The notes below the pieces were generated by a model that was not told the origin of the DNA, ran no database searches, and saw nothing but the letters and a program-made list of their open reading frames with translations. A stretch of 18,360 nt of DNA. Source: Planctomycetales bacterium. Lineage in GTDB: Bacteria; Planctomycetota; Planctomycetia; Pirellulales; UBA7805. The stretch lies in contig WVZU01000078.1 in NCBI GenBank assembly GCA_011772275.1, forward strand, positions 1 through 18,360, in the 5' to 3' direction. Position 1 is the stretch's first letter. Each line of letters opens with the position of its first letter. Shown here piece by piece: positions 118 to 17,494 of the stretch. The position numbers were made by a program, and so were the translations under genes.

Positions 118-3100
118 CTAACGAAACAACATGCCCGCATATCCGACAACCCGGCTGGTATCGCCCGACACGTCCGCGCTGGTGCCGTAGGCGACTTCCT
201 CACACGTTTGCAGTTGGCCCAGCTGGCGGAGCGTATCCAGAGCGATGACGGCCGGCAGGACACCACACATACTAATTTGCTCGCGACGGACCGTTTCGTA
301 CAGCTTGCCGGCGTCCATGGTTTTCAAGGCGTCGATGGCCAGCCGGTCCCGTCGCCGATTTTCCTGGTCGCTGGCAAAATGGTTCATGTCGCTGGAGATC
401 AGCAGGAGGGGCCGTGGTTCCTGGACCTGCAGCGCCGTGGCCAGATCTGCGGCGAACGCCTGACATTGCTCGAAATCGGCCGGGCCAATCGCCACGCCGA
501 CGATTCGGGTTTGGGGTGCCAGCCGCGCCAGCAGCGGCAATTGGACCTCAATGGCGTGCTCACCGCGGTGAGCCGCGGCATCCAGCTGCCAGCCGGCCAC
601 TTTGTTGGCCAGCAGTTCAGCCAGCTGGACGTCGGACGGCAGCGTGGCTCCGGGAATGGCCCACGAGTCGTGCGGTGCAATTGCGTACGTGGCACCGTGG
701 GGCGTGTGTTTGGGACAAAGGATGATTGTCGTGTCGGGAAATCGGATCCGCCGCAAGACGGTGGCGGCAATCCGTCCTGAGTAGATCAGTCCCGCATGGG
801 GGACCAGGGCTGCGTTCCAGCTGTCCGGATTCGCCGGGCCGTCGCGGGTCAGGTCATCCAGCATTGTTTGCAGTTGGTCCGGGGTGCCGGGGTAAAAGGT
901 GCCTGCCACGGCGGGTGGCCGCCGGCTGGTGCTGCCTGCCGTTTGTGGTCCGTTGCGGACGAGGATTTGTTTTTCGGTCGACTGGCAAGCCGCGCTGAAG
1001 ACCGCCGTGTTGGGCACGCGGTTCGCCTGGGCGGCTTGGGCCGTCTGTTCCAGCAATTTTTGGCTGTCCAGCTGGGGATGGAATTGCCAGGCCAGCCAGT
1101 CGCCGGCCTGCACGATCAGGGCACGGCGGTCCGGAACCGCACCGCGGAGATCGGAGTCGTCGACCGGGCCGTGCATGGCGGGATCCGTGAGGATCGTCAG
1201 CCCGATGCGGTTGTCAAGAGTCGAATCCGCCGCGCTACCCTTGACCAGCAGCCGCGCTGCCGCCTGGGTAAGTTGCAACAGGGTGGCTTGCAGAGGGATG
1301 GCCGGGCGGAGCGACAGTTGAGCGACGTGGAGGGGTTGGTCGTCGCCGTGGGGGTACATGGTAATTGCCGCTCCATGGACCATCCCGTCGGGGCAGTCGG
1401 GCAGGTAATAGCTGGGCGTTGCGCCGCGCTGGTGAGCTGCGATGTTGCGCCGACAATGTTCTCGCAACTGCCCCAGCTGCTGGTCGTCGATCGGCGGGGC
1501 TGGCGGTTGAGGAAAACTCGCCAGCAGGGGTGTGGAAAACGGGCCCTCGATCAAGCAGGTTTCAAACGTCAAAAGTTCCGTGTCGTCTTCGGTCCAGGCA
1601 GTCGGTGGCAAGCCCGCTTTGCGGCACACTTGCTCCAGAAACTGCTGGGCCGACAATTGGTGTTCGCTGGCCACATTGGGCAACAGCAGGCCGGCCGCCT
1701 TTCCTTGCCGGATTTGCAGGCCGTGCCGTCCGATTTCGACTTGGGACCCGCGGGCCGTGCCGCGGGCGGCGACCTTCCGAAACCCGTACAGCAACGATAC
1801 GTCCAGATCCAAAAAAGGGAGCTCCGTGCTGGATACCGGCGGCAGCCGGACGTCCTCCCGCGCGGTGCGATTCGCCGACTTTTGCACAGCCTCCTGCAGC
1901 GGCATCTCGCCCCCCAGCACGCCACAGCACCCCCGGAGGCGTCCTTGTCGTTTGAGCGTCACGAAGGCCCCCGTCACGGGCAGGTCGGCCGAATCCCCCA
2001 GTTCGGGCGCGGCGGTAGCCGCTTCGCGCTGGTAAACCGCTCGGGCGACCTGGAAGCAAGCGGCCTGGTGGATTTTCTGCCGCTGTTGGTCGTTTAGCGC
2101 CGGCCGGCTGGTGGCCGTTGAAGGGACAGGGGGCCCAGCGGGCGGTTTGTTTTCGGGGGGGGTAGCCATTGCGAGATTTCCTTTCGTGGTCGTTGCCCCG
2201 CGGTCGGCCTGATAGGGTTCGATGCGGACTGGCAACCGCCGCCGCCCCCAGCTGCCCGGCGCTTCGGCAAACCGACCCGGAATGGGCGTGTCACAAAACG
2301 CACAGCGATCATGGTTCAAATGGTAAGCTCCCAGTTCGTGCCAATCACGTTCGATGATCAGCTTGCCGCAATGATGGCAATAGGTGCTGTCGTGCTGGCG
2401 GTCATGCACATTGCCCACGTAGGCGTACTTGATGCCTTGTTGACCGGCGATCTGGTGAGCGACCAGCAACGTCTCGGCTGGCGTGGCGGGCCGGTCCTGC
2501 AGGCGAAAATCGGGATGAAAGGCCGTAAAGTGGACCGGCACCTGGTCGCCCAGGTTTTCCAAGACCCAATCGCACATTCGACGTAGCTCGTCCGGCGAAT
2601 CGTTCGCGCGGGGAATAATCAAATTGGTGATTTCCAGCCAGACGTCGGTCTCCTCTTTCAGCCAGCGAAGGGTTTCCAGTACCGGTTGCAGGTGCGAGAG
2701 GGTCAGTTGCTGGTAAAACTGTTCGGTAAACGCCTTGAGATCCACATTGGCCGCATCCATTACCTCGAAGAAAGGCTGGCGGGCCGCGGGAGTGATATAG
2801 CCGGCGGTGACGGCCACGGTCTGGATGCCGCGGGCGTGGCAGGCGTGGGCCGTATCGATGGCGTACTCGGCCCAGATGACCGGGTCGTTGTAAGTAAAGG
2901 CAACGCTGCGGCAACCCAAGTTTGCGGCGGCCGCAGCAATGGCTTCGGGCGAGGCCTGATTGCTGAGCCGGGCGATTTCGCGCGACTTGGAGATGTCCCA
3001 GTTCTGGCAGAACTTGCAGCCCAGATTGCAGCCCGCGGTGCCGAAGGAGAGCACGGGGGTGCCGGGAAAAAAATGATTCAGCGGTTTCTTTTCGATCGGG

Positions 3101-3327
3101 TCGACGCAGAAGCCGGTGCTGCGGCCGTAGGTGCTGAGCACCATTTGGCCGTCGCGATTTTCGCGTACAAAGCAGAAGCCACGATCGCCCGGCTTGAGAT
3201 GACATTCGCGAGGACAGAGATCGCAGACGATGCGATCGTCATCGCTGTGGGTGTGCCACCAGCCGCCCGCCTTGGCGCCGTCACCAAAGCGTTCTTGCTC
3301 AGGCGGAAGAAGTACAACACGCGACAT
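118..3327 (-). CDS. AmmeMemoRadiSam fusion: radical SAM enzyme + AMMECR1 + AMMECR1-like + Memo
   Basis: This 1069-residue protein joins the three parts of the AmmeMemoRadiSam system, whose substrate is unknown. Residues about 30-355 are the radical SAM module. It has an N-terminal Cys set (C35, C38, C42, C52), the 4Fe-4S/SAM motif GCNLGCKFCQNW with C100, C104 and C107, and a zinc-ribbon-like pair of CxxC motifs (C317/C320, C342/C345). Residues about 410-597 are AMMECR1 (GAFVTLK, LRGCCG, RKAGLPPTAW). Residues about 614-781 look like a second, eroded AMMECR1 copy. Residues about 803-1069 are Memo (AGTFYPG, VPHAGLIYSG with H844, the PKHTPHG region, SSDMNHF, MCGVLP with C1021). I chose the ATG at 3327 because homology begins soon after it. 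The ORF could open at 3477, but that would overlap the upstream DUF3467 gene and adds only a Ser/Arg-rich tail. It lies 55 bp downstream of that gene and is probably co-transcribed with it. Families are certain, function is not. Confidence 0.9.
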   Translation of the reverse strand: MSRVVLLPPEQERFGDGAKAGGWWHTHSDDDRIVCDLCPRECHLKPGDRGFCFVRENRDGQMVLSTYGRSTGFCVDPIEKKPLNHFFPGTPVLSFGTAGCNLGCKFCQNWDISKSREIARLSNQASPEAIAAAAANLGCRSVAFTYNDPVIWAEYAIDTAHACHARGIQTVAVTAGYITPAARQPFFEVMDAANVDLKAFTEQFYQQLTLSHLQPVLETLRWLKEETDVWLEITNLIIPRANDSPDELRRMCDWVLENLGDQVPVHFTAFHPDFRLQDRPATPAETLLVAHQIAGQQGIKYAYVGNVHDRQHDSTYCHHCGKLIIERDWHELGAYHLNHDRCAFCDTPIPGRFAEAPGSWGRRRLPVRIEPYQADRGATTTKGNLAMATPPENKPPAGPPVPSTATSRPALNDQQRQKIHQAACFQVARAVYQREAATAAPELGDSADLPVTGAFVTLKRQGRLRGCCGVLGGEMPLQEAVQKSANRTAREDVRLPPVSSTELPFLDLDVSLLYGFRKVAARGTARGSQVEIGRHGLQIRQGKAAGLLLPNVASEHQLSAQQFLEQVCRKAGLPPTAWTEDDTELLTFETCLIEGPFSTPLLASFPQPPAPPIDDQQLGQLREHCRRNIAAHQRGATPSYYLPDCPDGMVHGAAITMYPHGDDQPLHVAQLSLRPAIPLQATLLQLTQAAARLLVKGSAADSTLDNRIGLTILTDPAMHGPVDDSDLRGAVPDRRALIVQAGDWLAWQFHPQLDSQKLLEQTAQAAQANRVPNTAVFSAACQSTEKQILVRNGPQTAGSTSRRPPAVAGTFYPGTPDQLQTMLDDLTRDGPANPDSWNAALVPHAGLIYSGRIAATVLRRIRFPDTTIILCPKHTPHGATYAIAPHDSWAIPGATLPSDVQLAELLANKVAGWQLDAAAHRGEHAIEVQLPLLARLAPQTRIVGVAIGPADFEQCQAFAADLATALQVQEPRPLLLISSDMNHFASDQENRRRDRLAIDALKTMDAGKLYETVRREQISMCGVLPAVIALDTLRQLGQLQTCEEVAYGTSADVSGDTSRVVGYAGMLFR

Positions 3328-3382: not shown

Positions 3383-3991
3383 CTATGCATCCGGACCGGA
3401 TGGGTCAGCGGCGGGGTCCTCGTCTTGTGGCGGCCGCTGCCGTTGGACCCGCTGCTGGAACTGCTGATAAGTAGCATTCAGCGACTCGACCACGCGGGGC
3501 ACCTGCGGAGCGGCCAGGTAGACACGGGTCGAGACGGCCGGATGCGGATACATGTTGGTCAGAAAATCGAGCTTGAATTCGGACGCGCCGTGGGAGATCA
3601 TCAGGCCGTTGGCGTAAGTGCCGGCCAACATTTCGTCCGGTAGTTTTAATTCGTCGTACAGCTCCTGCACGGTCGGACGCTTCTGGGATTCGTTCCGTGG
3701 CAGTTCCGGCGGCGGCCCGAACTTCTGCTGGTACATGTCCAGGTTCTTGCGCAGCGCTTCGATGACTTGCGGCAGGACGGCGTGCGGCAAAACGACGCGG
3801 GCCACAATCCTGGCCGGCGGCGAAAGATTTTGGACGAAATCCAGCACAAATTCCGTGGCCCCGGTCATCAAGATTACCCCCGTGCTGAACACCCCGGATC
3901 CAACTTTTTCCGGGACACGAGCGGAAAGGTGCTTTGCGCGGACTTGCTGGCTGTCCCCGCTGTCTTCAGGTGGTGAATCGGAGGTCGACAT
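3383..3991 (-). CDS. DUF3467 protein with two tandem copies of the domain
   Basis: This is a 202-residue protein built from two related halves. Residues about 35-93 contain ATEFVLDF and ARVVLPH, followed by the helix VIEALRKNLDMYQQKFG. Residues about 125-183 contain YANGLMISH, ASEFKLDF and TRVYLA, followed by VVESLNATYQQF. Each half resembles DUF3467, a small beta-sandwich-plus-helix family of unknown function that usually occurs as a single copy of roughly 100 residues. The linker and the last 20 residues are Pro/Asp/Arg-rich and probably flexible. No signal peptide or membrane segment is visible, so it is probably cytoplasmic. The ATG at 3991 follows an in-frame TGA on the minus strand, which supports this start. 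There is no clear ribosome binding site. It is the promoter-proximal gene of the unit with the AmmeMemoRadiSam fusion. Confidence 0.8.
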   Translation of the reverse strand: MSTSDSPPEDSGDSQQVRAKHLSARVPEKVGSGVFSTGVILMTGATEFVLDFVQNLSPPARIVARVVLPHAVLPQVIEALRKNLDMYQQKFGPPPELPRNESQKRPTVQELYDELKLPDEMLAGTYANGLMISHGASEFKLDFLTNMYPHPAVSTRVYLAAPQVPRVVESLNATYQQFQQRVQRQRPPQDEDPAADPSGPDA

Positions 3992-4135: not shown

Positions 4136-4190
4136 ACGGATCGTCTCGTTGTGTACCCGCTGTGGCCGCCATGGAAAACTCCTCCCTTTG

Positions 4191-5234
4191 ATGCCACTCT
4201 TCGCTCGACAACTGATCATCCTTGCTGGGTCATCCACGCTGCTGAACCTTTTGGCTGCGGCGGCCCCCGCAGCCACCCCGCCCGCCGGCTCGCGGCTGCG
4301 AATCGTGACCTTCAATGCCCAGTGCCTGGCAGCGCCGGATACCCGCGATACGAGGTTGCCCCGATTTCGCTGGGAGATCGCTCGTCGCCGCCACGTCGAA
4401 CAGGTGGCTCATCTGGTGGAGGTGCTGGAACCGGATGTCCTGGCGCTGCAGGAGGTCACTTCCCAGCCGGCCATCGACCTGTTGCTGCAGGTGCTGGCCG
4501 CCAAAGGGCTGGACCGCTACGCCGGTTATCATGCCGAATCGCAAGACAAATTTGCCGGCTTCGACATTGCTTTCGTTTCCCGATTTAAACCGGACTTGGT
4601 TGGCGGGCAACCGCTGCGAATGCTGTCTTCTCCCTCTGGCGACACAACCTGGCGGGAAAGTTTTTCTTTTACTGACGAAAATGGGCGCGAGGTCCGGCGG
4701 GATACGGCACTCACAAGGCATGCTCTGTTTTACTTCGACGTGCACGGGTTAAAACTGGGGTTGTTGGGCCTGCATCTAAAGGCTGATCCCAGCGACGCTT
4801 ACTCCAACGCGCGGAGGACCGCCGAAGCGCGCATCGCGCAACGGATTATCCAGCAGGAGATCGTCGCTCGTGGATACAAGCCAATTGTTCTGGGCGACCT
4901 GAATGACTATGATCCAGACGTGCCTGACCGTGATTCGAGGCGGAGTACGAAAACAAATGTGCTGAAACTTTTGAAAGATTATGACCCGGGCCAGGTGGGG
5001 GACGAGCTGGTGAATGCGGCCGAGCGTATTGTCCGCGTTGCAGACCGCTTTACCTCTCACTGGGACATCAACGAAAATTCCACTTCCGACGATGGCGACG
5101 TGTTCACGATGATTGATCACATCCTGCTCCACCAATCATTAGCCCCCAAGATCCGCAGGACGTTCGTCTGCCGGTTGAGTGACCTGAAAACGTCCGATCA
5201 CTGGCCCGTGGTTGTCGATTTGAAGCTGCCCTAA
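4191..5234 (+). CDS. exported endonuclease/exonuclease/phosphatase (EEP) family protein
   Basis: This is a 347-residue metal-dependent phosphodiesterase/nuclease of the EEP (DNase I-like) superfamily. Conserved motifs appear in order: TFNAQ with N42, LQEV with E88, LHLKA with H195, VLGDLND with D236 and N238, IDHILL with D309/H310, and TSDHWPV with D336/H337. Residues 1-29 form a signal peptide-like segment (basic N-terminus, hydrophobic core, Ala-rich end APAA), so the enzyme probably acts outside the cytoplasm. A TTG at 4149 would add 14 residues ahead of the signal peptide. The ATG at 4191 fits better. Its stop lies 19 bp before deoC, suggesting co-transcription with nucleoside catabolism genes. 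Supplying nucleosides or deoxyribose from extracellular nucleic acid is a reasonable inference, but EEP substrates range from DNA to lipids and sugars, so the substrate is open. Confidence 0.85.
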   Translation: MPLFARQLIILAGSSTLLNLLAAAAPAATPPAGSRLRIVTFNAQCLAAPDTRDTRLPRFRWEIARRRHVEQVAHLVEVLEPDVLALQEVTSQPAIDLLLQVLAAKGLDRYAGYHAESQDKFAGFDIAFVSRFKPDLVGGQPLRMLSSPSGDTTWRESFSFTDENGREVRRDTALTRHALFYFDVHGLKLGLLGLHLKADPSDAYSNARRTAEARIAQRIIQQEIVARGYKPIVLGDLNDYDPDVPDRDSRRSTKTNVLKLLKDYDPGQVGDELVNAAERIVRVADRFTSHWDINENSTSDDGDVFTMIDHILLHQSLAPKIRRTFVCRLSDLKTSDHWPVVVDLKLP

Positions 5235-5253
5235 GCGGTGGCGGCACTGTGCC

Positions 5254-5982
5254 ATGTCCGATTCGATCGCCCACTATATTGATCATGCGGTGCTGCATCC
5301 CACGCAAACGGAAGAGGATGTGCAAGCGGCCTGTCGGCTGGGTGCGGAATTGGAGGTTGCCAGCCTGTGCGTCAAACCGTACCTGGTGCCGCTGACTGCC
5401 GATTTACTGTCGGGCACTGCGGTGAAGGTGTCGACGGTGGTCAGCTTTCCACACGGTGCCTGCACGACCGCGCAAAAAGTGGCCGAGACCCACGATGCTT
5501 GTCGAGCGGGGGCGGTCGAACTGGATATGGTCGTCAACCTTGGGAAGGTCTTTGCCGGTCAGTGGGACTACGTGCGGGACGAGATCGCGGCGGTCGTCGC
5601 GGCGGCCGACCAGCATGGGGCGATTGTGAAGGTGATCCTGGAAACAGGATTGCTGGCGGACGATCGGCAGAAAGTCGAGCTTTGTCGCTGCTGCGAAACC
5701 GCCGGGGCGGCGTTCGTCAAGACGTCCACCGGTTTTGCTTACCTGCAGCAGCCGGATGGCACGGTCGTGGCCACGGGCGCCACGTTGGAGGACGTCGCCC
5801 TCATGCGGGCCAGCTGCTCGGCCAAGGTCGCCATCAAGGCCTCAGGCGGAATCCGCACCCTCCAAGCCGCTCGACAATTTATCCAACGAGGCGCCACCCG
5901 CCTGGGTACCAGTTCCACCAAAGCCCTTGTCGAACAAGAACGCGGAATATTGTCGGCGACGGCCGACCTGGGAAACGACTAA
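5254..5982 (+). CDS. deoC: deoxyribose-phosphate aldolase
   Basis: This 242-residue protein is a class I aldolase that cleaves 2-deoxy-D-ribose-5-phosphate to glyceraldehyde-3-phosphate and acetaldehyde in the cytoplasm, the last step of deoxynucleoside breakdown. The family landmarks are all present: YIDHAVLHP near the N-terminus, VSTVVSFPHG, VELDMVVNLG with D91, the Schiff-base lysine K156 in FVKTSTGF, and the second active-site lysine K195 in IKASGGIRT. Length is typical of the bacterial TIM-barrel DERA family (about 220-250). The ATG at 5254 is directly followed by the conserved N-terminus, with no obvious ribosome binding site. It lies between the EEP gene (19-bp gap) and the first purine nucleoside phosphorylase (27-bp gap), consistent with one transcript. 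Confidence 0.95.
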   Translation: MSDSIAHYIDHAVLHPTQTEEDVQAACRLGAELEVASLCVKPYLVPLTADLLSGTAVKVSTVVSFPHGACTTAQKVAETHDACRAGAVELDMVVNLGKVFAGQWDYVRDEIAAVVAAADQHGAIVKVILETGLLADDRQKVELCRCCETAGAAFVKTSTGFAYLQQPDGTVVATGATLEDVALMRASCSAKVAIKASGGIRTLQAARQFIQRGATRLGTSSTKALVEQERGILSATADLGND

Positions 5983-6009
5983 CTTCCTGACCTGCCACAC
6001 TCCCTTACC

Positions 6010-6843
6010 ATGCTTGAACTTTACGACCAGATCCAAGCGGCTACGGCCTTCATCCGCTCGAAATGGCCCCACCCCCCCCGCGTGGGCATCATCCTGGGTA
6101 CCGGCTTGGGCAGCCTCGCCGACCAGATCGATTTGGAGGCGGCGATCGAGTACGAAGACATCCCTCATTTTCCCCGTGCGACAGCGGCCAGCCATCGGGG
6201 GCGCCTCGTCTGCGGCTCGTTGCAAGGCCTGCGGGTCATGGCCATGGAGGGCCGGGTGCACGCCTATGAAGGTTATCCGTTGCAGCGGATCACGCTGCCG
6301 GTGCGGGTCATCAAGGAAATGGGCGCTCAACTGCTGATTATTTCCAATGCCGTCGGCGGCCTGAACCCAAACTACCATGCAGGCGACATCATGGTGATCG
6401 AGGACCATATCAACCTGATGAACGACAATCCACTGATCGGCATCAATGACGATCGCCTGGGTCCGCGGTTTCCCGATATGGCCGCGCCGTACGACCAGCC
6501 GCTGGTCGACGTGGCCCTGGAGGTTGCTCGCCGCGAAAACTTTGTCGCTCACCAAGGCATCCTCGTCGCGGTCACCGGCCCCAACCTGGAGACCCGCGCC
6601 GAATATCGCTTTCTGCGCCTGATCGGCGCCGACGCGGTCGGCATGTCGACGGTTCCCGAAGTGATTACCGCAGCCCACTGCAGCCTGCGAACGGTCGGGT
6701 TGTCGATCGTCACCGATATGTGCCTGCCTGACGCCCTGGAGGCGGTGGATATTGACCGCATCATCGCCACTGCCAACGCCGCCGAACCGAAACTGCGCGC
6801 GATCGTGTTGGGTTTGCTGGACCACGTGCGGAAGAACGAATGA
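6010..6843 (+). CDS. purine nucleoside phosphorylase, trimeric type (copy 1)
   Basis: This 277-residue enzyme belongs to the low-molecular-mass trimeric PNP family, which splits purine (deoxy)nucleosides with phosphate into base and (deoxy)ribose-1-phosphate. Phosphate-site motifs are GTGLG (T31), SHRGRLVCG (H62) and EGRVHAYEGY (R82, H84). The base/ribose site includes GPNLETRAEYR with E194 and VGMSTVPEV with M212. The position matching human PNP Asn243 is Asp236 (IVTDMC). In the methylthioadenosine phosphorylase relatives an Asp here helps bind 6-aminopurines, and Asn favours 6-oxopurines, so specificity may differ from classic PNP. The Glu that accompanies 6-oxopurine binding is kept, so adenosine use is only a possibility. 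It is followed 47 bp later by a paralogue (copy 2). Confidence 0.92.
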   Translation: MLELYDQIQAATAFIRSKWPHPPRVGIILGTGLGSLADQIDLEAAIEYEDIPHFPRATAASHRGRLVCGSLQGLRVMAMEGRVHAYEGYPLQRITLPVRVIKEMGAQLLIISNAVGGLNPNYHAGDIMVIEDHINLMNDNPLIGINDDRLGPRFPDMAAPYDQPLVDVALEVARRENFVAHQGILVAVTGPNLETRAEYRFLRLIGADAVGMSTVPEVITAAHCSLRTVGLSIVTDMCLPDALEAVDIDRIIATANAAEPKLRAIVLGLLDHVRKNE

Positions 6844-6890
6844 GTCCAACGTGGAGCGCGGGAGGAGAGTGGGGAGCGGGGGACGGGTGA

Positions 6891-7787
6891 ATGACCGGCC
6901 GTGAGACCTCTCAGCTCCGACCCTCCCCCCGCGCGCCCCACCAACCGCCATCGGCTTCGGGTCCATCGCTTTTGCCTGCCCAGATCGAAGAGTCCGCGTC
7001 ATTTATTCAAGCGCGGTGGTCCAGGCCGCCGCGGGTGGGCATCATCCTCGGTAGCGGACTGGCGCGGCTGGCGGATGGCATGACCGACGCGGTGTACATG
7101 CCATACAAGGAGATACCCCATTTTCTCACAGCGACCGCGGTCGGTCACCAAGGGCGCCTGGTTTGCGGCTGTCTGGCCGGAGTCCCTGTGGTCGTCATGC
7201 AGGGACGCCTCCATGCCTATGAAGGCCATCCGGCCGAACGGATCGCTTTCCCCGTCCGCGTGATGAAACTGCTGGGAATTGAATTATTGATCGTCTCCAA
7301 CGCCAGCGGGGGATTAAATCCGAATTTCCGGTCCGGTGACGTGATGGTTATCGAGGACCACCTGAACTTGATGGGCGTCAACCCTTTGATCGGTATCCAT
7401 GACGATCGGCTTGGCCCCCCTTTTCCCGACATGTCGGCAGCGTACGATCAGGACTTACGCGACCGCGCCATGCAGATCGCGCGACGTGAAAACTTCACCG
7501 CCCACGTTGGCGTTTACGCCGCCATGCGGGGCCCCAACTTCGAGACTCGGGCCGAATATCGATTTTTGCGGCGGATGGGGGCCGACGTGGTTGGCATGTC
7601 GACCGTACCAGAAGTGATCGTGGCCGCTCACGCCGGTTTACCCGTGCTGGCCCTTTCGGTTGTGGCCAACCTCTGCCGCCCCGACGCCCCTGAGAAAACC
7701 AGTGGCGAGCAGGTTGTGGCCGTTGTGGAAGCAGCCGCGCCCAAACTAAAGGCGATTGTGTTGGGTGTCCTGGAGACTATGGGCTAG
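6891..7787 (+). CDS. purine nucleoside phosphorylase, trimeric type (copy 2)
   Basis: This is a tandem paralogue of copy 1, 298 residues as drawn, alignable along its length from residue about 28. It keeps GSGLA, GHQGRLVCG, QGRLHAYEGH, SNASGGLNPNF, GPNFETRAEYR (E218) and VGMSTVPEV. At the base-recognition loop it reads VVAN, so Asn260 replaces Asp236 of copy 1, while the neighbouring Thr (human Thr242) is Ala259. The first 27 residues are Pro/Ser-rich, have no counterpart in copy 1 and may not be translated. A TTG at 6972 would start the protein exactly where the homology begins. Upstream are GGAGGA (6861) and GGGGAG (6871), both far from the ATG at 6891. Role as for copy 1, probably with 6-oxopurine nucleosides. 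Retention of both copies suggests divided substrate ranges. Confidence 0.9.
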   Translation: MTGRETSQLRPSPRAPHQPPSASGPSLLPAQIEESASFIQARWSRPPRVGIILGSGLARLADGMTDAVYMPYKEIPHFLTATAVGHQGRLVCGCLAGVPVVVMQGRLHAYEGHPAERIAFPVRVMKLLGIELLIVSNASGGLNPNFRSGDVMVIEDHLNLMGVNPLIGIHDDRLGPPFPDMSAAYDQDLRDRAMQIARRENFTAHVGVYAAMRGPNFETRAEYRFLRRMGADVVGMSTVPEVIVAAHAGLPVLALSVVANLCRPDAPEKTSGEQVVAVVEAAAPKLKAIVLGVLETMG

Positions 7788-7819
7788 TGGTTCGGCCGAC
7801 GTCGGTGGGTGCCCGTGTC

Positions 7820-7864
7820 GAACAATTTTCGTAAAGGCTGCGGAACCTATGGGGAAAATTGTTC
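7820..7864. promoter_or_regulatory. perfect 11-bp inverted repeat upstream of the pyrimidine phosphorylase gene
   Basis: GAACAATTTTC at 7820-7830 is the exact reverse complement of GAAAATTGTTC at 7854-7864, with a 23-bp spacer. Both arms are AT-rich against a GC-rich background, and the right arm directly abuts a -10-like TACAAT at 7865. An operator for a dimeric repressor, or two half-sites bridged by a loop, is more likely than a terminator because no T-tract follows and the arms are AT-rich. An RNA hairpin in the leader is also possible. Confidence 0.6.
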
Positions 7865-7870
7865 TACAAT
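7842..7870 (+). promoter_or_regulatory. possible promoter for the deoA-cdd-nudix genes
   Basis: TACAAT at 7865-7870 is a good -10 hexamer 44 bp before the ATG at 7915. Seventeen bases upstream is GGAACC (7842-7847), which is a poor sigma70 -35 but resembles the GGAAC core of ECF-sigma -35 elements. The -10 region is not convincingly ECF-like, so the sigma class is undecided. It overlaps the spacer and right arm of the inverted repeat, as expected for a repressible promoter. Confidence 0.35.
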
Positions 7871-7914
7871 GGGTTGCTCCCCATTGACCGATCACTGATC
7901 AGCGACCTTGACCT

Positions 7915-9240
7915 ATGCTGCCTGCGGAGATCATTGCCAAGAAACGGGATGGCCAGTCCTTGACGGCTGAGGAAATCCGCGGGTTCATCCGCGGTTTTTC
8001 CGAGGGCTCGATCCCCGACTATCAAATGGCGGCCCTGGCGATGGCGATTTGCATTCGCGGCATGTCGCCGGACGAGACCGCCGTGCTGACCGCCGAGATG
8101 CTCTCTAGCGGGTCGAGTCTGGAGCGGTTTGACGACCCGCGGCCGCGGGTCGACAAACATTCCACCGGTGGCCTCGGCGATAAGGTCTCGCTGGTGCTCG
8201 CCCCCCTGCTGGCCTGCTGTGACCTGCTGGTGCCCATGATTTCCGGAAGGGGGCTGGGCGCGACGGGCGGGACGCTGGACAAGCTGGAGTCGATCCCTGG
8301 CTTTCGGACCGATTTGTCCAGCGACGAGATTCGGACCGTGACCCGTCAGGTTGGCTGCGTCATCACGGGCACAACGGCCGAGCTGGCCCCGGCCGACAAA
8401 AAATTGTACGCCTTACGCGATGTGACGGCGACCATCGAGTCGGTACCGCTGATCACGTCCAGTATTATGAGCAAGAAACTTGCTGAGAACCTGGATGCCT
8501 TGGCGCTGGATGTAAAATTTGGCCAGGCCAGCTTCATGAAGACGCGGGGCGAAGCCCGCCAGCTGGCCCGCCAGCTGATCCATGTAGGGACCAGCATGAA
8601 CTTGCCAACCACCGCGCTGCTGACCGACATGAACCAGCCCCTGGGGCAGATGATTGGCAATGCCGTCGAGGTTGACGAGGCGGTGGCGACCTTGGAAGGT
8701 GACGGTCCGGCGGATCTGGTGGAACTGGTCTTGGCGCTGGGAGCCGAGCTGCTGGTCGGCGTGGGTAAGGAGCCGAACCGAGAAGAGGCGCTCAAACAAC
8801 TGCGGGGCCATTTGGGATCGGGTCGAGCCCGGCAGAAGTTTGACCAGCTGGTACGGGCGCAAGGTGGAGATCCCGACGCGCCCCGCCCGGTGGCCACGGC
8901 CACCGACTGGCTCGCCGCAGAGCCTGGCTACGTGACTTCCATCGCAGCAGAACAGCTGGGCTGGCTGATCATCGAACTGGGAGGTGGCCGCCAAGTGATG
9001 ACCGACAAAATTCGTCATGACGTGGGCGTTCAGCTGCTGGTCCGCGTGGGCGACCAAGTTTTCCAGGGGCAGCCGTTGTTGCGCCTCTTCGCCGATCCGG
9101 ATGATCTGACAAGGGTGCAGCCAGGGCTTGAACGGATGGTCCAGATCGGCGAGAAACCGGTGCAGGTAGAAAAACTGATTCACCAGAGGCTGGCAAATGA
9201 CGAGCCAGGGGAAGATGAGCCAGGGGAAACTGACGGTTGA
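7915..9240 (+). CDS. deoA: thymidine/pyrimidine-nucleoside phosphorylase
   Basis: This 441-residue enzyme reversibly phosphorolyses thymidine, deoxyuridine and possibly uridine to the free base and (deoxy)ribose-1-phosphate. It has the full family architecture: an N-terminal alpha domain, the glycosyltransferase-like alpha/beta domain and the C-terminal PYNP domain (from about residue 345). Active-site residues are K81-H82-S83 in DKHSTGGLGDK, R168 in YALRDVTATI, S183 and K187, which match E. coli R171, S186 and K190, plus TALLTDMNQPLG. One departure is GLGATGGT, where the usual GLGHTGGT has His; here it is Ala116. The C-terminus has a DEPGE-DEPGE duplication in the region overlapping cdd. I cannot separate DeoA-type from Pdp-type specificity by sequence, so the symbol denotes the family. 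Confidence 0.92.
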   Translation: MLPAEIIAKKRDGQSLTAEEIRGFIRGFSEGSIPDYQMAALAMAICIRGMSPDETAVLTAEMLSSGSSLERFDDPRPRVDKHSTGGLGDKVSLVLAPLLACCDLLVPMISGRGLGATGGTLDKLESIPGFRTDLSSDEIRTVTRQVGCVITGTTAELAPADKKLYALRDVTATIESVPLITSSIMSKKLAENLDALALDVKFGQASFMKTRGEARQLARQLIHVGTSMNLPTTALLTDMNQPLGQMIGNAVEVDEAVATLEGDGPADLVELVLALGAELLVGVGKEPNREEALKQLRGHLGSGRARQKFDQLVRAQGGDPDAPRPVATATDWLAAEPGYVTSIAAEQLGWLIIELGGGRQVMTDKIRHDVGVQLLVRVGDQVFQGQPLLRLFADPDDLTRVQPGLERMVQIGEKPVQVEKLIHQRLANDEPGEDEPGETDG

Positions 9241-9628
9241 GCGGCGGGAGGCGTTAAGCCAGGCCGCCGTGGACGCGCGACGGGCCGCGTACGCACCCTA
9301 TTCCAACTACCCGGTCGGGGCCGCTCTGCTGACGGACTCCGGCGAGATATTTAAAGGCTGCAATGTGGAAAACGGGTCGCTGGGCCTGACGATCTGTGCC
9401 GAACGGGTGGCAGCCGCCGCTGCGGTCACCGCCGGCCAGCGGCAGTTTCTGGCCCTGGCCGTGGCCGCTGCCGGCGGAGCAACCCCCTGCGGTGGCTGCC
9501 GGCAGTTTCTGGCCGAATTCAGCCCAGAATTGCCGGTCCTGTTGGTCGACGTCCAGCAAAAAAACGCGGTGCGGGAGGTCCGGCTGAGCGACCTGTTGCC
9601 CCAACCCTATGGGTTGCAGCGGGGTTGA
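9197..9628 (+). CDS. cdd: cytidine deaminase
   Basis: This 143-residue protein is a small zinc-dependent cytidine/deoxycytidine deaminase (family usual length about 130-145), converting cytidine to uridine in the cytoplasm. Substrate and zinc motifs are AYAPYSNYPVGAAL, GCNVENGSLGL, CAER (C67 as zinc ligand, E69 as catalytic Glu) and PCGGCRQ (C98 and C101 as zinc ligands). The reading frame overlaps the end of the pyrimidine phosphorylase gene by 44 bp, or 26 bp if translation begins at the second ATG at 9215. That ATG has AGGGGA just upstream but very close. The two candidate starts arose within a short duplicated segment. The overlap indicates translational coupling, fitting sequential action: the deaminase makes uridine/deoxyuridine, which the phosphorylase cleaves. 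Confidence 0.93.
   Translation: MTSQGKMSQGKLTVERREALSQAAVDARRAAYAPYSNYPVGAALLTDSGEIFKGCNVENGSLGLTICAERVAAAAAVTAGQRQFLALAVAAAGGATPCGGCRQFLAEFSPELPVLLVDVQQKNAVREVRLSDLLPQPYGLQRG
9202..9228. repeat. short tandem duplication at the deoA/cdd overlap
   Basis: GAGCCAGGGGAA occurs at 9202-9213 and again at 9217-9228, 15 bp apart. In the phosphorylase frame it repeats the pentapeptide DEPGE. In the cdd frame it gives MTSQGK followed by MSQGK, so the duplication has probably doubled the cdd start codon and placed an AGGGGA sequence upstream of the second ATG. Confidence 0.75.
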
Positions 9629-9653
9629 GCGAAGAGTGCGTGGAGGGAAGGTA

Positions 9654-10076
9654 GTGAGTGGCATTTTGCAGGGGGGGGCACGTCGCGGCGTGGTCGCGGT
9701 GATTGAACGTGACGGTTGTCTGCTGGTCATTCGCCGGTCCCAGCACGTGGTTGCGCCCGGTGCGCTCTGTTTTCCCGGCGGCGCGATCCAGCCTGGCGAA
9801 TCGGAACCGGTCGCCCTGATCCGTGAATTGGACGAAGAATTGGGAGTAGCAATCCAGCCGTTGCGGCAGATCTGGCAGAGCGTGACGGACTGGAACGTGC
9901 AAATTTCCTGGTGGCACGCGCATCTACCGCCAGCGGAAGAGCTGCACCCGTGCCAGGCGGAGGTGGCGGCCGTGTACTGGATGACGATCGACGATTTACA
10001 CGATCACGCAGATTTACTGTCAAGCAACCTCGACTTTCTTCAGGGTGTTCGCTCTGGTCAGATCGTGCTGACGTAG
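9654..10076 (+). CDS. Nudix hydrolase
   Basis: This 140-residue protein has a complete Nudix box at residues 43-65: G43, E49, R57-E58, E61-E62 and G64 fit the GX5EX7REUXEEXGU pattern. The sequence around it (VVAPGALCFPGG before, WNVQISWWHAHL after) is of the NUDIX_Hydrolase type. The family hydrolyses nucleoside diphosphates linked to another moiety. The substrate cannot be read from the box, though neighbours suggest a (deoxy)nucleotide. I chose the GTG at 9654 because GGAGGG lies at 9642-9647, six bases upstream, one of the best ribosome binding sites in the window. The frame is open to an ATG at 9609 that would overlap cdd and add 15 residues. It ends 4 bp from the convergent hpt stop, with no room for a separate terminator. 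Confidence 0.88.
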   Translation: MSGILQGGARRGVVAVIERDGCLLVIRRSQHVVAPGALCFPGGAIQPGESEPVALIRELDEELGVAIQPLRQIWQSVTDWNVQISWWHAHLPPAEELHPCQAEVAAVYWMTIDDLHDHADLLSSNLDFLQGVRSGQIVLT

Positions 10077-10080
10077 TCCC

Positions 10081-10602
10081 TTAGCGCAGATCGCTTTCTT
10101 CCAGAGCGGCGAGGTAGGGCAGGTTGCGGTATTCGTCTTGGTAGTCCAGCCCGTAGCCGACGACGAACTGGTCGGGGATTTCAAAACCGACGAAATCGGG
10201 TTCCATGTCGACCTCCTGGCGGCCCTTTTTACGCAGCAGGACGAGTGACTTGATTGAGCGCGGATTCAGGTCCTGCATCCGCTGGATGACCTGATGCAGC
10301 GTGTGCCCCGTGTCGAATATGTCGTCGACCAGGAGGACATCACGGTCGGTGATGTCCGGCATCAACTCGTCGTAGATCGTCAGCTCGCCGCGTAGCGTGG
10401 TGGCGCCATGATAACTGCGAGCCTGCAGGACGCCGACCCGCAGCGGCATCTCGATCAGCCGGATCAGATCTGCCAACAGAATCACACTGCCGGTCAGGAT
10501 GCCGATGGTCGTCAGTGGCTGGTTCTGGTAGTGGGCGTTGATCTGGGCGGCGATCCGCCGCACACCGGCATGCAGTTCGTCTGCGGTCAGTACGGTTTTC
10601 AT
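10081..10602 (-). CDS. hpt: hypoxanthine phosphoribosyltransferase
   Basis: This 173-residue type I phosphoribosyltransferase condenses hypoxanthine (and often guanine) with PRPP to give IMP/GMP in the cytoplasm. The PRPP-binding motif is VLLVDDIFDTGHTL (residues 89-102). The first loop is LTGSVILLADLIR (36-48), close to the LLKGS-FLADL pattern of bacterial Hpt. The flexible loop region is ARSYHGATTLRGEL, and the C-terminal base-binding segment is PDFVGFEIPDQFVVGYGLDYQDEYR in outline (FVGFEIP, VGYGLDY). Length is typical. It is the last gene of the minus-strand unit, 51 bp after the nucleoside transporter, and recycles the base that the purine phosphorylases across the convergent junction release. 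No clear ribosome binding site. Confidence 0.94.
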   Translation of the reverse strand: MKTVLTADELHAGVRRIAAQINAHYQNQPLTTIGILTGSVILLADLIRLIEMPLRVGVLQARSYHGATTLRGELTIYDELMPDITDRDVLLVDDIFDTGHTLHQVIQRMQDLNPRSIKSLVLLRKKGRQEVDMEPDFVGFEIPDQFVVGYGLDYQDEYRNLPYLAALEESDLR

Positions 10603-10653
10603 CAGCTTCGCGGGTTTCGTTTGGGGAAGTGGATCGTTGATGGGGTGGGTCCT

Positions 10654-12135
10654 TCAGACGAGCACGCCGGCGACACAGGCGGTCATGAAGGCGGCCAGGG
10701 TGCCGCCGATCATGGCCCGCAAGCCTAGCCGAGCCAGGTCGCCCCGCCGCTGGGGGGCGATGACGCCAATGCCCCCCAACTGGATTCCGATCGAGCCGAA
10801 ATTGGCAAAGCCGCACAGGGCGTAGGTAAGGATGCGCACCGACCGTTCGCTCAGCGGGCTGGCCGCACCCGTATCGATCCAGCGGCTCAGTTTGTCATAA
10901 GCAATAAATTCGTTGGCGACCATCTTGATCCCCAACAGCTCGCCTGCCAAAAAACACTCATTTTTCGGAATCCCCATGATCCAGGCCAGCGGCCAGAAGA
11001 GGTAGCTCAACCCTCGTTCCAAGGACCACTCCCACTGTTGCCCCCAGAGGGAATTGATATAGCCGCCCATGGCCCCCAGCGCGGTGTTGAACAGGGCGAT
11101 GAAAGCGAGAAAGGCGATCAACATGGCGCCGACGTTCAGTGCCAGTTTTAGCCCGTCGGCAGCCCCCTTGGCCGCGGCCTCGATCAGGTTCGCGTCCTTT
11201 TCTTCCACCTCCAGCTCGACATGGCCCATCGTCATCGAGTGCTCAGTTTCCGGCTGCATGACTTTGGCGATCAGCAGGGCGGCGGGGGCCGAGATAAAGG
11301 ATGCCGTGACGAGGTGACCTGCCGGGATGCCCATCTGCACGTAGGCGGCCAGGACGCCTCCGGCAATCGTGGCAAATCCCCCCACCATCACCGCGTTCAA
11401 TTCGGACATCGTCATGCGACCTACATAGGGGCGTATCGCCAGCGGGGCTTCGGTCTGCCCCACAAAAATATTCGCGGCGGCCGAAAGGCTCTCCGCACCG
11501 CTCGTCCCCAACGTCCGTTGCATGATCCAGGCAAAAAATGCCACCACCCGCTGCATGACACCCAGATAATAGAGGACGGTCATCAGTGCCGAAAAAAAGA
11601 TGATTGTCGGCAGGACGCCAAACGCAAACGAGGTCAGCAGCTGCCGAGTGCGCGGAAAGTTTTTTTCACGAAACGCTTCCACCTCTGTCGCGATCGCGTA
11701 GGACACTTCTTTTTCCCACGAAGCATCGTCTAAATCAAACTCCCGTGTGGCGTCTCCTACCGTGATCTGCACGGTGCCTTCGCGACCTTTCAGGCGAGCG
11801 ACGACGTCGCGGATCGGCTTGTCCAGGTTGTCGCGAATTCCCCGAAAATCGCATTTTACGCCATCCAACAATACGGGCACTTCGATCTCGGCGTTGGCCT
11901 CGAACATGAAAAGCGACCCCGCATCCGCGCTGCGGATTACCGTCGTAAAGAAATCCCCAATCCCTTTGAAGATCACCGCGCCGGGGGTCGTCTTGAGGAT
12001 CAAGACTGCAAAGAAAAACTGCAACAGCAGCCCGCCGATGATGACGCGGAACTGAATTTTTCGCTTGTGCGAACTCATCAGCCACGCCAGGCCAATCATC
12101 ACGAACAGGCCGCAAAAGCTGATCAGGCGTTCCAT
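10654..12135 (-). CDS. nupC: concentrative nucleoside transporter (CNT/NupC family) with an extra soluble insert
   Basis: This 493-residue membrane protein takes up nucleosides by cation symport. Nucleoside-site motifs of the CNT family are present: GQTEAP (residues 226-231, hairpin HP1), VANEFIAY (E409) and CGFANFGSIG (N445, S448), which match the Gln-Thr-Glu, Glu332 and Asn368/Ser371 positions of the Vibrio CNT. Two N-terminal membrane segments (about 4-20, 30-47) precede an unusual hydrophilic insert of about 85 residues (about 79-167). The usual core then resumes at FGVLPTIIFFSALM. Typical bacterial NupC proteins of about 400 residues have only a short loop there. I chose the ATG at 12135. 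An upstream ATG at 12189 would add 18 polar residues. It sits between a transglutaminase-like gene (65 bp upstream) and hpt. The gene symbol denotes the family. Confidence 0.9.
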   Translation of the reverse strand: MERLISFCGLFVMIGLAWLMSSHKRKIQFRVIIGGLLLQFFFAVLILKTTPGAVIFKGIGDFFTTVIRSADAGSLFMFEANAEIEVPVLLDGVKCDFRGIRDNLDKPIRDVVARLKGREGTVQITVGDATREFDLDDASWEKEVSYAIATEVEAFREKNFPRTRQLLTSFAFGVLPTIIFFSALMTVLYYLGVMQRVVAFFAWIMQRTLGTSGAESLSAAANIFVGQTEAPLAIRPYVGRMTMSELNAVMVGGFATIAGGVLAAYVQMGIPAGHLVTASFISAPAALLIAKVMQPETEHSMTMGHVELEVEEKDANLIEAAAKGAADGLKLALNVGAMLIAFLAFIALFNTALGAMGGYINSLWGQQWEWSLERGLSYLFWPLAWIMGIPKNECFLAGELLGIKMVANEFIAYDKLSRWIDTGAASPLSERSVRILTYALCGFANFGSIGIQLGGIGVIAPQRRGDLARLGLRAMIGGTLAAFMTACVAGVLV

Positions 12136-12200
12136 GGGGGCGAAGGGTGCGGTGTGAGTACGGAGTCGTGCGTCCTGCGCGTTCGGCAACTCAGGGGAAC

Positions 12201-16066: not shown

Positions 16067-16876
16067 TCACGGCGCGAGGGCCAGTTCCTTCAGGGCGTCC
16101 AGAGTGGCCAGGAGGTCGTCGCGCGACAGATCCTGCCAACCTTCGCTCTTTTGACGCAAGATCGCCAGTTTGAAAGAGTCAAAGGCAGCTGCAAGATCGT
16201 GGGGTAGTTCGGCCAGCTGAGCGAACGGTTGGACACGCGGGCCCGTTGCCGTGGCGGACGCTGCATCCACAGGCGAAAGTTCGCGCGCCGCCGACTGTTC
16301 GCCAAAGTCCGGCTCAAAGCTTTCCTCGCTGCCTGGGTCGCGGACCGTTCCCGTCCTGCCGGCGACGGTGCCACGTTCAGCGGCGGAGAAGTCGAGCACG
16401 ATATCTTCATCGAAGTCGGCTGGGACAATGTCCTGTTGCCGCGGCTGCAGCTCGGGCGGACTGCCCAACGTCTCCCACCGCCGGTTGCGCATCTGAGCGA
16501 CGGTCCAGCCGTTCTGGACCGCGCCTTCCAGCCACATTTCGGCGTCGGGCCAGTCGACAGCGCCCAGGAAGTGGCTCCAAAACAGGCCCTCGTATTCCGG
16601 CCAGACCTGACCAAAGCGATGGTAGACGCGGCGCAGCCGGCCGACATGTTGAGCGCTCACGCCACCCACACGGCGGCTCCACGCTTCGTCCGAATATTCG
16701 CTGGCCTCCGCGCCAGAATCTTCCAACTGCTTGCGCCACTGGCAGATGATCTTCCCCTTCTCCCAGTTCGTCGTGCTGATTAACCGGTCCCACTGCGCGA
16801 CAAAGGCTTCCGTGGTGGCCGCGACCGGTAACCCGCCGGCCTGGGACCGCCCTTTCTTCCCTGTGGTTTTGCTCAT
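16067..16876 (-). CDS. unrecognised 269-residue protein with a possible DNA-binding N-terminal half
   Basis: I do not recognise this protein. It starts with a basic tail (MSKTTGKKGRSQ). Residues about 24-140 are predicted helical and rich in Trp and Arg (AQWDRLISTTNWEKGKIICQ, DEAWSRRVGGVSAQHVGRLRR, GLFWSHFLGAVDW, GWTVAQMRNRRWE). The segment WSRRVGGVSAQHVGRLRRVY looks like a helix-turn-helix, so DNA binding is possible. Residues 150-225 are acidic and Pro/Ser/Ala-rich. The C-terminal 45 residues form one helix (AAAFDSFKLAILRQ, DDLLATLDALKELAL). The ATG at 16876 has GAGGG 6 bases upstream and begins a sensible protein. A much longer ORF to 17467 would run through the antisense of the CDGSH gene and is rejected. 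It is preceded by a 214-bp gap. Confidence 0.7.
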   Translation of the reverse strand: MSKTTGKKGRSQAGGLPVAATTEAFVAQWDRLISTTNWEKGKIICQWRKQLEDSGAEASEYSDEAWSRRVGGVSAQHVGRLRRVYHRFGQVWPEYEGLFWSHFLGAVDWPDAEMWLEGAVQNGWTVAQMRNRRWETLGSPPELQPRQQDIVPADFDEDIVLDFSAAERGTVAGRTGTVRDPGSEESFEPDFGEQSAARELSPVDAASATATGPRVQPFAQLAELPHDLAAAFDSFKLAILRQKSEGWQDLSRDDLLATLDALKELALAP

Positions 16877-17071
16877 CGTTCCCTCGTTCTCTCCTCTTCC
16901 TGCTCGCGATTTGGACACCTTGCTGCTCACACCTAGTTTACCGCCTGGCCGCCGCCTGGGGTCCAGCCAGGTTGGGCCAGGTCGGCCGGCGAACGGGTCC
17001 CCCGCTCCCCACAAGCGGACAATGCCCTTGGCTGGGAATCCGGACCGGGGCGAGTGCGGCGTGGATAAGTT

Positions 17072-17087
17072 GTCGACGATTGTCGAC
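17072..17087 (-). terminator. possible hairpin after the CDGSH gene
   Basis: Two copies of the self-complementary GTCGAC (17072-17077, 17082-17087) separated by 4 nt can form a 6-bp stem immediately past the stop codon at 17091. No T-tract follows on the minus strand, so termination is unproven. Confidence 0.3.
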
Positions 17088-17090
17088 GGC

Positions 17091-17306
17091 TTAGGAGCTG
17101 CCGGCGGTCTCAGCCGCCTCGAAACCGCACGTTTTGTGTGTGCCGTCGCAGAAGGGACGGTTTTGCGACGCACCGCAGCGGCACAAGGCAATCGCCGGCT
17201 TGTCCGCGGCAATGGGGAACGTGTTGCCTTCATGATCCACGACGGTGACCGGGCCTTCCACGACAAACGGTCCATTTTGGCGACAACGGATCGTGACATG
17301 CGACAT
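17091..17306 (-). CDS. CDGSH iron-sulfur domain protein
   Basis: This 71-residue protein carries the full CDGSH signature CRCGASQNRPFCDGTH (residues 42-57). It provides three Cys (C42, C44, C53) and one His (H57) to a 2Fe-2S cluster, as in mitoNEET-type proteins. The preceding beta-rich part (TIRCRQNGPFVVEGPVTVVD) is the usual small-bacterial-CDGSH N-terminus. These proteins are cytosolic redox or cluster-transfer proteins, and the partner is not indicated here. GGAG lies at a good distance upstream of the ATG at 17306. An ATG at 17393 would add 29 residues, mostly Pro/Arg-rich, and is less likely. No membrane segment. Confidence 0.9.
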   Translation of the reverse strand: MSHVTIRCRQNGPFVVEGPVTVVDHEGNTFPIAADKPAIALCRCGASQNRPFCDGTHKTCGFEAAETAGSS

Positions 17307-17494
17307 GATTTTTTCTCCGGGGGGCCTGGCCGTGCTGGGTTCCCAGGCCCTGGCCAGCGGCCTGGCCGGGTCCTGGGAAACGGATCGGCGCACAGTTTAC
17401 CCCAGGCAGCTGATCGACGTAAGGGTACGAAGCCGCGTTCCCGCGGCGTGGGCGCGGAACCCGCCACGCAATCATCCGCAGCCGGGGGGGTGGG

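Follow-up and report, generated by a model that had tools for sequence, protein, structure and literature searches.

Here we report the analysis of a protein in which the radical S-adenosylmethionine (SAM), AMMECR1 and Memo families of the AmmeMemoRadiSam system are joined in a single chain, encoded on the minus strand of an 18,360-nucleotide stretch of a Planctomycetales genome (contig WVZU01000078.1; this whole stretch is called the window). The chain carries in addition a second AMMECR1-like part, here called the fourth module, which lies between AMMECR1 and Memo. The order of the parts and the presence of this module had been proposed in an earlier note made from the DNA letters alone, and both are borne out by NCBIfam and Pfam profiles and by an AlphaFold model of the module.

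Four modules in one reading frame

The minus-strand frame is open from position 3477 to 118 (1119 amino acids), and its likely start is at 3327, giving 1069 residues, because the family consensus begins with MSRVVxLPP at this point. No stop or frameshift falls between the modules, in agreement with the unbroken frame described in the earlier note. The note did not name the strand; in the plus-strand reading, positions 118-3327 hold 4 stops. In the profile search that the note had suggested, TIGR04337 (598.9 bits against a cut-off of 220; residues 23-369, profile positions 3-349 of 349), TIGR04335 (127.6 bits against 99; residues 422-590), which places the AMMECR1 module in its family, and TIGR04336 (256.3 bits against 26; residues 803-1068, profile positions 1-270 of 270) all scored above their curated cut-offs in this order, and Pfam agrees by finding PF04055, PF01871 and PF01875.

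Residue conservation was counted over 120 rows, namely the window protein and 119 of its best 120 database matches (a piece of 619 residues was dropped), taken from 1730 proteins found with an E-value of 1e-10 or lower and thus biased towards near relatives; for A1, 88 of the 119 full-length matches were used, which were chosen manually and not by a set rule. The residues that bind the SAM cluster and the Memo metal, described as intact in the earlier note, are kept in every row (Table 1). One of them, C1021, falls beyond the sequence alignment with MEMO1 but within the range of the structural match. The closest fold of the radical SAM module is that of the pyruvate formate-lyase activating enzyme (PFL-AE), including the peptide-bound entry 3cb8, and among the remaining NCBIfam models those for glycyl-radical activases score best with it. 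Two further cysteine sets flank the cluster motif, of which the N-terminal one probably has a role and the C-terminal one may form a zinc ribbon or an extra cluster. The module is followed by a linker, with a mean conservation of 0.18 over residues 370-421, and at this low-confidence linker one relative has its genes split.

Table 1. Features of the fused gene, with window positions and residues of the 1069-residue protein (pLDDT, predicted local distance difference test)
Feature	Position	Strand	Residues	Basis or remark
Fused gene, radical SAM - AMMECR1 - AMMECR1-like - Memo	118..3327	minus		1069 aa
Radical SAM module	2221..3261	minus	23-369	TIGR04337
N-terminal cysteine set	3172..3225	minus	C35, C38, C42, C52	119-120 of 120 rows
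CxxxCxxC of the SAM [4Fe-4S] cluster	3007..3030	minus	C100, C104, C107	120/120 rows
C-terminal cysteine set	2293..2379	minus	C317, C320, C342, C345	120/120 rows
Linker	2104..2220	minus	370-408	mostly low confidence; pLDDT <50 at 375-403
AMMECR1 module	1528..2103	minus	409-600	TIGR04335
Motif LRGCCG (lineage form LR[AGS]CCG)	1921..1938	minus	464-469	fused rows
Second AMMECR1-fold module, without LRxCxG	928..1509	minus	607-800	AlphaFold model, structural matches
Memo module	124..921	minus	803-1068	TIGR04336
Memo metal ligand (= MEMO1 H49)	796..798	minus	H844	MEMO1 alignment; 120/120 rows
Memo metal ligand (= MEMO1 H81)	706..708	minus	H874	MEMO1 alignment; 120/120 rows
Memo metal ligand (MEMO1 C244, equated by position)	265..267	minus	C1021	120/120 rows

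The fourth module was recognized by its structure. Residues 591-802 match no Pfam or NCBIfam family in the fused protein, residues 607-800 taken alone gave no NCBIfam match with an E-value of 0.01 or lower, and there is no second match to PF01871 or TIGR04335, these profiles finding only one AMMECR1 stretch in the chain. Modelled alone with AlphaFold, residues 607-800 gave a pLDDT of 92.4, and the only clear structural matches of this model are three solved proteins, all of the AMMECR1 type, which assigns the module to the AMMECR1 fold. That the module derives from Memo or from radical SAM was rejected on HHalign values of 14.1 and 20.6, as compared with 27.1 for AMMECR1. In a search for a stand-alone homologue, which covers proteins of similar length, none of 274 candidates sharing words with the module reached E 0.001 or better. 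The LRxCxG motif is present in this module in 0 of 120 rows, and D647, R674, Q680 and G720 are invariant in all of them. The module is the least conserved of the four (mean 0.39 vs 0.56-0.74 in the other three) and has the highest ratio of nonsynonymous to synonymous substitution rates (dN/dS) in five of six gene pairs; its values of 0.10-0.17 nevertheless indicate purifying selection, the pairs being drawn from nine genes of one genus, with members shared and several dS values above 1.

The active-site motif LRGCCG, which the earlier note listed among the intact sets, is present, with L464, R465, C467, C468 and G469 invariant in all 120 fused rows, while residue 466 varies (Ala in 94, Gly in 25, Ser in 1). 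The motif thus differs from the usual AMMECR1 form LRGC[IV]G, which describes a subset and does not define the family. The CysCys pair recurs in 15 of 16 further proteins bearing the fourth module (ten of the 16 have LRSCCG, mostly from one genus), and LRGCIG or LRGCVG is found in 43 of 48 proteins without this module. Among the best 120 of 383 AMMECR1-sized database proteins, LRGCIG occurs in 95 and CysCys in 16, five of which carry part of the fourth module and resemble pieces of fusions; the motif search found no motif in 4 of the 120. The CysCys form is typical of the four-module form and not exclusive to it, because it also occurs in a few of these AMMECR1-sized proteins and in two loci without the fourth module (L036 and L124).

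Distribution of the fusion and of its parts

The joining of all parts, which the earlier note regarded as unusual, is a widespread planctomycete architecture and not a new system. All 119 matches retained from the best 120 are full-length fusions of at least 1050 residues with all three Pfam domains, and the names given by one source, JGI, already list the parts one by one (the third name is incomplete). A search for the same domain order in 392 genomes of the phylum found the full-length frame in 12, including that of the window; eight of these are single-contig assemblies, and the count is a lower bound, since at most two candidates were scored per genome. Named loci with all four modules come from Gimesia, Planctomyces and Pirellula, the last one ending at a contig end. 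On a quick tree of 85 of 113 radical SAM rows (a thinned set), two changes are required to account for the 15 four-module fusions.

Elsewhere among 80 named loci, the parts usually occur as separate adjoining genes, and some loci, several of them on short contigs, hold the radical SAM gene alone. Memo-AMMECR1 fusions occur in six loci (L063, L064, L069, L089, L095 and L099), and L035 (Verrucomicrobiales) and L124 (genome G357) each have a radical SAM gene together with an AMMECR1-Memo fusion that lacks the fourth module. Genome G352 has a radical SAM-AMMECR1 fusion and a separate Memo gene, G167 has a radical SAM gene beside an AMMECR1-fourth module-Memo fusion, and a Pirellulales genome has a three-module fusion with a linker of ~85 residues in place of the fourth module (L036, 164-3079). 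Among the loci read, chains that combine AMMECR1 with Memo and lack radical SAM are found in either order, and a chain of radical SAM and AMMECR1 that lacks Memo is found once (G352).

Three other frames were observed among these loci. The Memo gene of G352 (L014 182-1588 / L120 7619-8929) has ~170 extra N-terminal residues without a profile match, which look AMMECR1-like by eye only, as HHalign and hmmsearch gave no support. G167 holds a second AmmeMemo set, in which Memo and AMMECR1 matches lie in one 572-residue frame (G167:C1:98396-99919). A 1064-residue frame on a Chloroflexi contig (L062, 185-3376) has its radical SAM domain at the C terminus (714-1060).

Above the cut-offs, radical SAM was found in 192, AMMECR1 in 184 and Memo in 233 of the 392 genomes. 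Within the class of the window (40 genomes), 17 genomes hold all three parts, 22 hold none and one (G377) holds Memo only; the full fusion is present in 12 of the 17. The link among the parts is looser in the wider phylum than in this class.

A DUF3467 gene (3383-3991) lies directly upstream of the fusion on the same strand, and DUF3467 also adjoins the fusion in G353, where it is 62% identical. Farther from the fusion is a nucleoside-salvage cluster (4149-12189) with Exo_endo_phos, deoC, a tandem pair of purine-nucleoside phosphorylases that share 60% identity, a pyrimidine-nucleoside phosphorylase, cytidine deaminase, NUDIX, an HPRT-like protein and NupC. A tblastn comparison of 12 neighbouring proteins of the window with 16 related loci (6.5-19.9 kb) matched no salvage gene; the matches were confined to DUF3467 and a class IV aminotransferase, both in G353. 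At 17091-17393 of the window, a frame with a CDGSH iron-sulfur domain is nested in a minus-strand frame (16067-17467) that itself has no Pfam match.

Possible function of the single-chain enzyme

The three parts are likely to work in one pathway, as indicated by their domains, by the ligand residues that they keep, and by their being present or absent together within the class. Our preferred reading, which we hold tentatively, is that the protein is a planctomycete-type single-chain AmmeMemoRadiSam enzyme, in which the motif-less AMMECR1 either pairs with the active one or widens its substrate site. AMMECR1, placed between the other two parts, would hold the substrate; the PFL-AE-like radical SAM module, on its flexible tether of ~40 residues, would start radical chemistry on it; and the Memo module, with a predicted Fe(2His-1Cys) site, would then perform the redox step that comes next. 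The degenerate AMMECR1 could pair with the active one, an asymmetric pair taking the place of a homodimer, or contribute to a wider substrate site, and its conservation as a pseudo-AMMECR1 suggests the asymmetric pair. As a substrate we would guess at a protein or peptide in preference to a free nucleotide or lipid, because of three hints: the fold is PFL-AE-like, PMC7159879 places a radical SAM protein related to that of Memo-Ammecr1 systems in peptide-processing systems, and PMC12710340 describes Memo-like proteins that are predicted to be fused to peptide-recognition domains. The earlier note took the fusion to imply that the radical SAM product is handed to the AMMECR1 and Memo parts, which is a reasonable proposal, helped by the co-occurrence in the class, and was put too strongly.

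Several observations weigh against the single-chain enzyme as proposed. The genome of the window (84.6% complete) has one Memo match, one AMMECR1 match and two radical SAM copies, the second being a stand-alone TIGR04337 gene (G000:C229:26264-27352, loci L002 and L121), ~460 bases from a contig end and 66% identical to the fused module. On the tree, this copy pairs with L038 of Rhodopirellula (support 99) within a set of 17 rows that holds all 15 four-module rows (support 88). Because of this second copy, the fusion does not fix the stoichiometry in the cell at 1:1, and this part of the earlier note was put too strongly. At least 41 of the 392 genomes have Memo and lack such a radical SAM protein, and four (G071, G110, G191 and G212) have radical SAM and no AMMECR1 match, many of the assemblies being incomplete. 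The fourth module is absent from L035, L124 and L036 and so is not needed in general, and its HHalign comparison to AMMECR1, taken alone, gives a low probability of 16%. The structure prediction for the full chain, which the earlier note had proposed, reached a predicted TM-score (pTM) of 0.60. The order of the steps and the hand-over of the product are ones that we infer, and the existence of a homodimer for the fourth module to replace is an assumption. There is no substrate, product or activity on record for the system; according to PMC11081632, the biochemical reaction of MEMO1 is unsolved and the protein showed no dioxygenase activity with standard substrates.

A less probable explanation is that three ordinary enzymes were joined for equal expression without channelling, the fourth module being a worn duplicate that serves as a spacer. 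It would fit the finding that most non-planctomycete loci read encode the parts separately, as well as the low conservation and high relative dN/dS of the fourth module. A spacer would, however, need neither the four invariant residues in all 120 rows, nor dN/dS values as low as those observed, nor a confidently predicted fold.

It is unlikely that the radical SAM module acts as an activase, abstracting a hydrogen, as PFL-AE does, from a glycine that lies within its own chain, in either AMMECR1 or Memo, and leaving a protein radical or modified residue. The fold, with its peptide-bound match, the activase models among NCBIfam and the covalent joining to a target in the same chain are all consistent with it. 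Yet at G466, the most evident glycine, which adjoins the AMMECR1 cysteine, 95 of the 120 fused rows have Ala or Ser, so a glycyl radical at this site is disfavoured, and a Pfam search of this protein at E up to 0.1 found no glycyl-radical domain. G469 is still invariant, and the argument therefore bears on G466 only.

More improbable still is a system that modifies a nucleotide base with the adjoining salvage genes as its functional partners. A 2019 analysis of the Memo superfamily reportedly linked Memo to base or isoprenoid modification, and the salvage cluster lies within the window; its genes were rejected as partners since none was matched in the 16 related loci. An artefact of assembly or gene calling has a negligible chance: the window genome is incomplete and in 437 contigs, yet the stop-free frame recurs in the 12 genomes and 119 matches described above.

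Beyond the single-chain enzyme, a bolder and rather doubtful proposal is that the fused lineage represents a radical machine, derived and self-contained, acting on a protein or peptide, in which the pseudo-AMMECR1 would replace one subunit of an AMMECR1 pair, CysCys would replace the single cysteine, and the substrate would pass between the radical SAM and iron sites in one asymmetric chain. If true, the system would be complete in one polypeptide, and a single purification would suffice to test the unknown chemistry of human MEMO1 and AMMECR1; to our knowledge, the biochemical reaction of the human counterpart of AMMECR1 is unsolved. The fused chain is a useful handle, since one expression construct would serve for the order of steps, contacts and substrate capture, and the analysis points to C467/C468, D647, R674 and Q680 as residues for mutation. 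In the titles, abstracts and passages of the literature searched, whose coverage leaves out most subscription papers, we found neither the full fusion nor its second AMMECR1 module treated, and no description of the nature of this module or of the CysCys motif; the same holds for the passages of PMC11918410, PMC9062700, PMC7701253 and PMC6969169.

Comparison with known systems

The fused protein shares with the three-gene AmmeMemoRadiSam system all three families above their cut-offs and the metal and cluster ligands, and differs from it in its single chain, in LR[AGS]CCG for the commoner LRGC[IV]G, and in the extra AMMECR1-fold module. Partly fused forms of the system have one or more joints in common with the full fusion. 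From the other planctomycete full fusions (Gimesia L032, Planctomyces L033 and those of Pirellulaceae), with the same four modules, the same order, about the same length and 46-78% identity, there is no difference of kind, motif residue 466 varying among A, G and S. Among solved proteins, the AMMECR1-type PH0010 (1vaj), MM0484 (1zq7) and ST0229 (1wsc) have the same fold as both AMMECR1 modules; the second module is 18% identical to 1vaj and lacks LRxCxG. Human MEMO1, as solved, is a lone Memo domain of ~295 residues and has neither a radical SAM nor an AMMECR1 part. Finally, the radical SAM module is 20% identical to PFL-AE, as compared with which the N- and C-terminal cysteine sets of the fused protein are extra.

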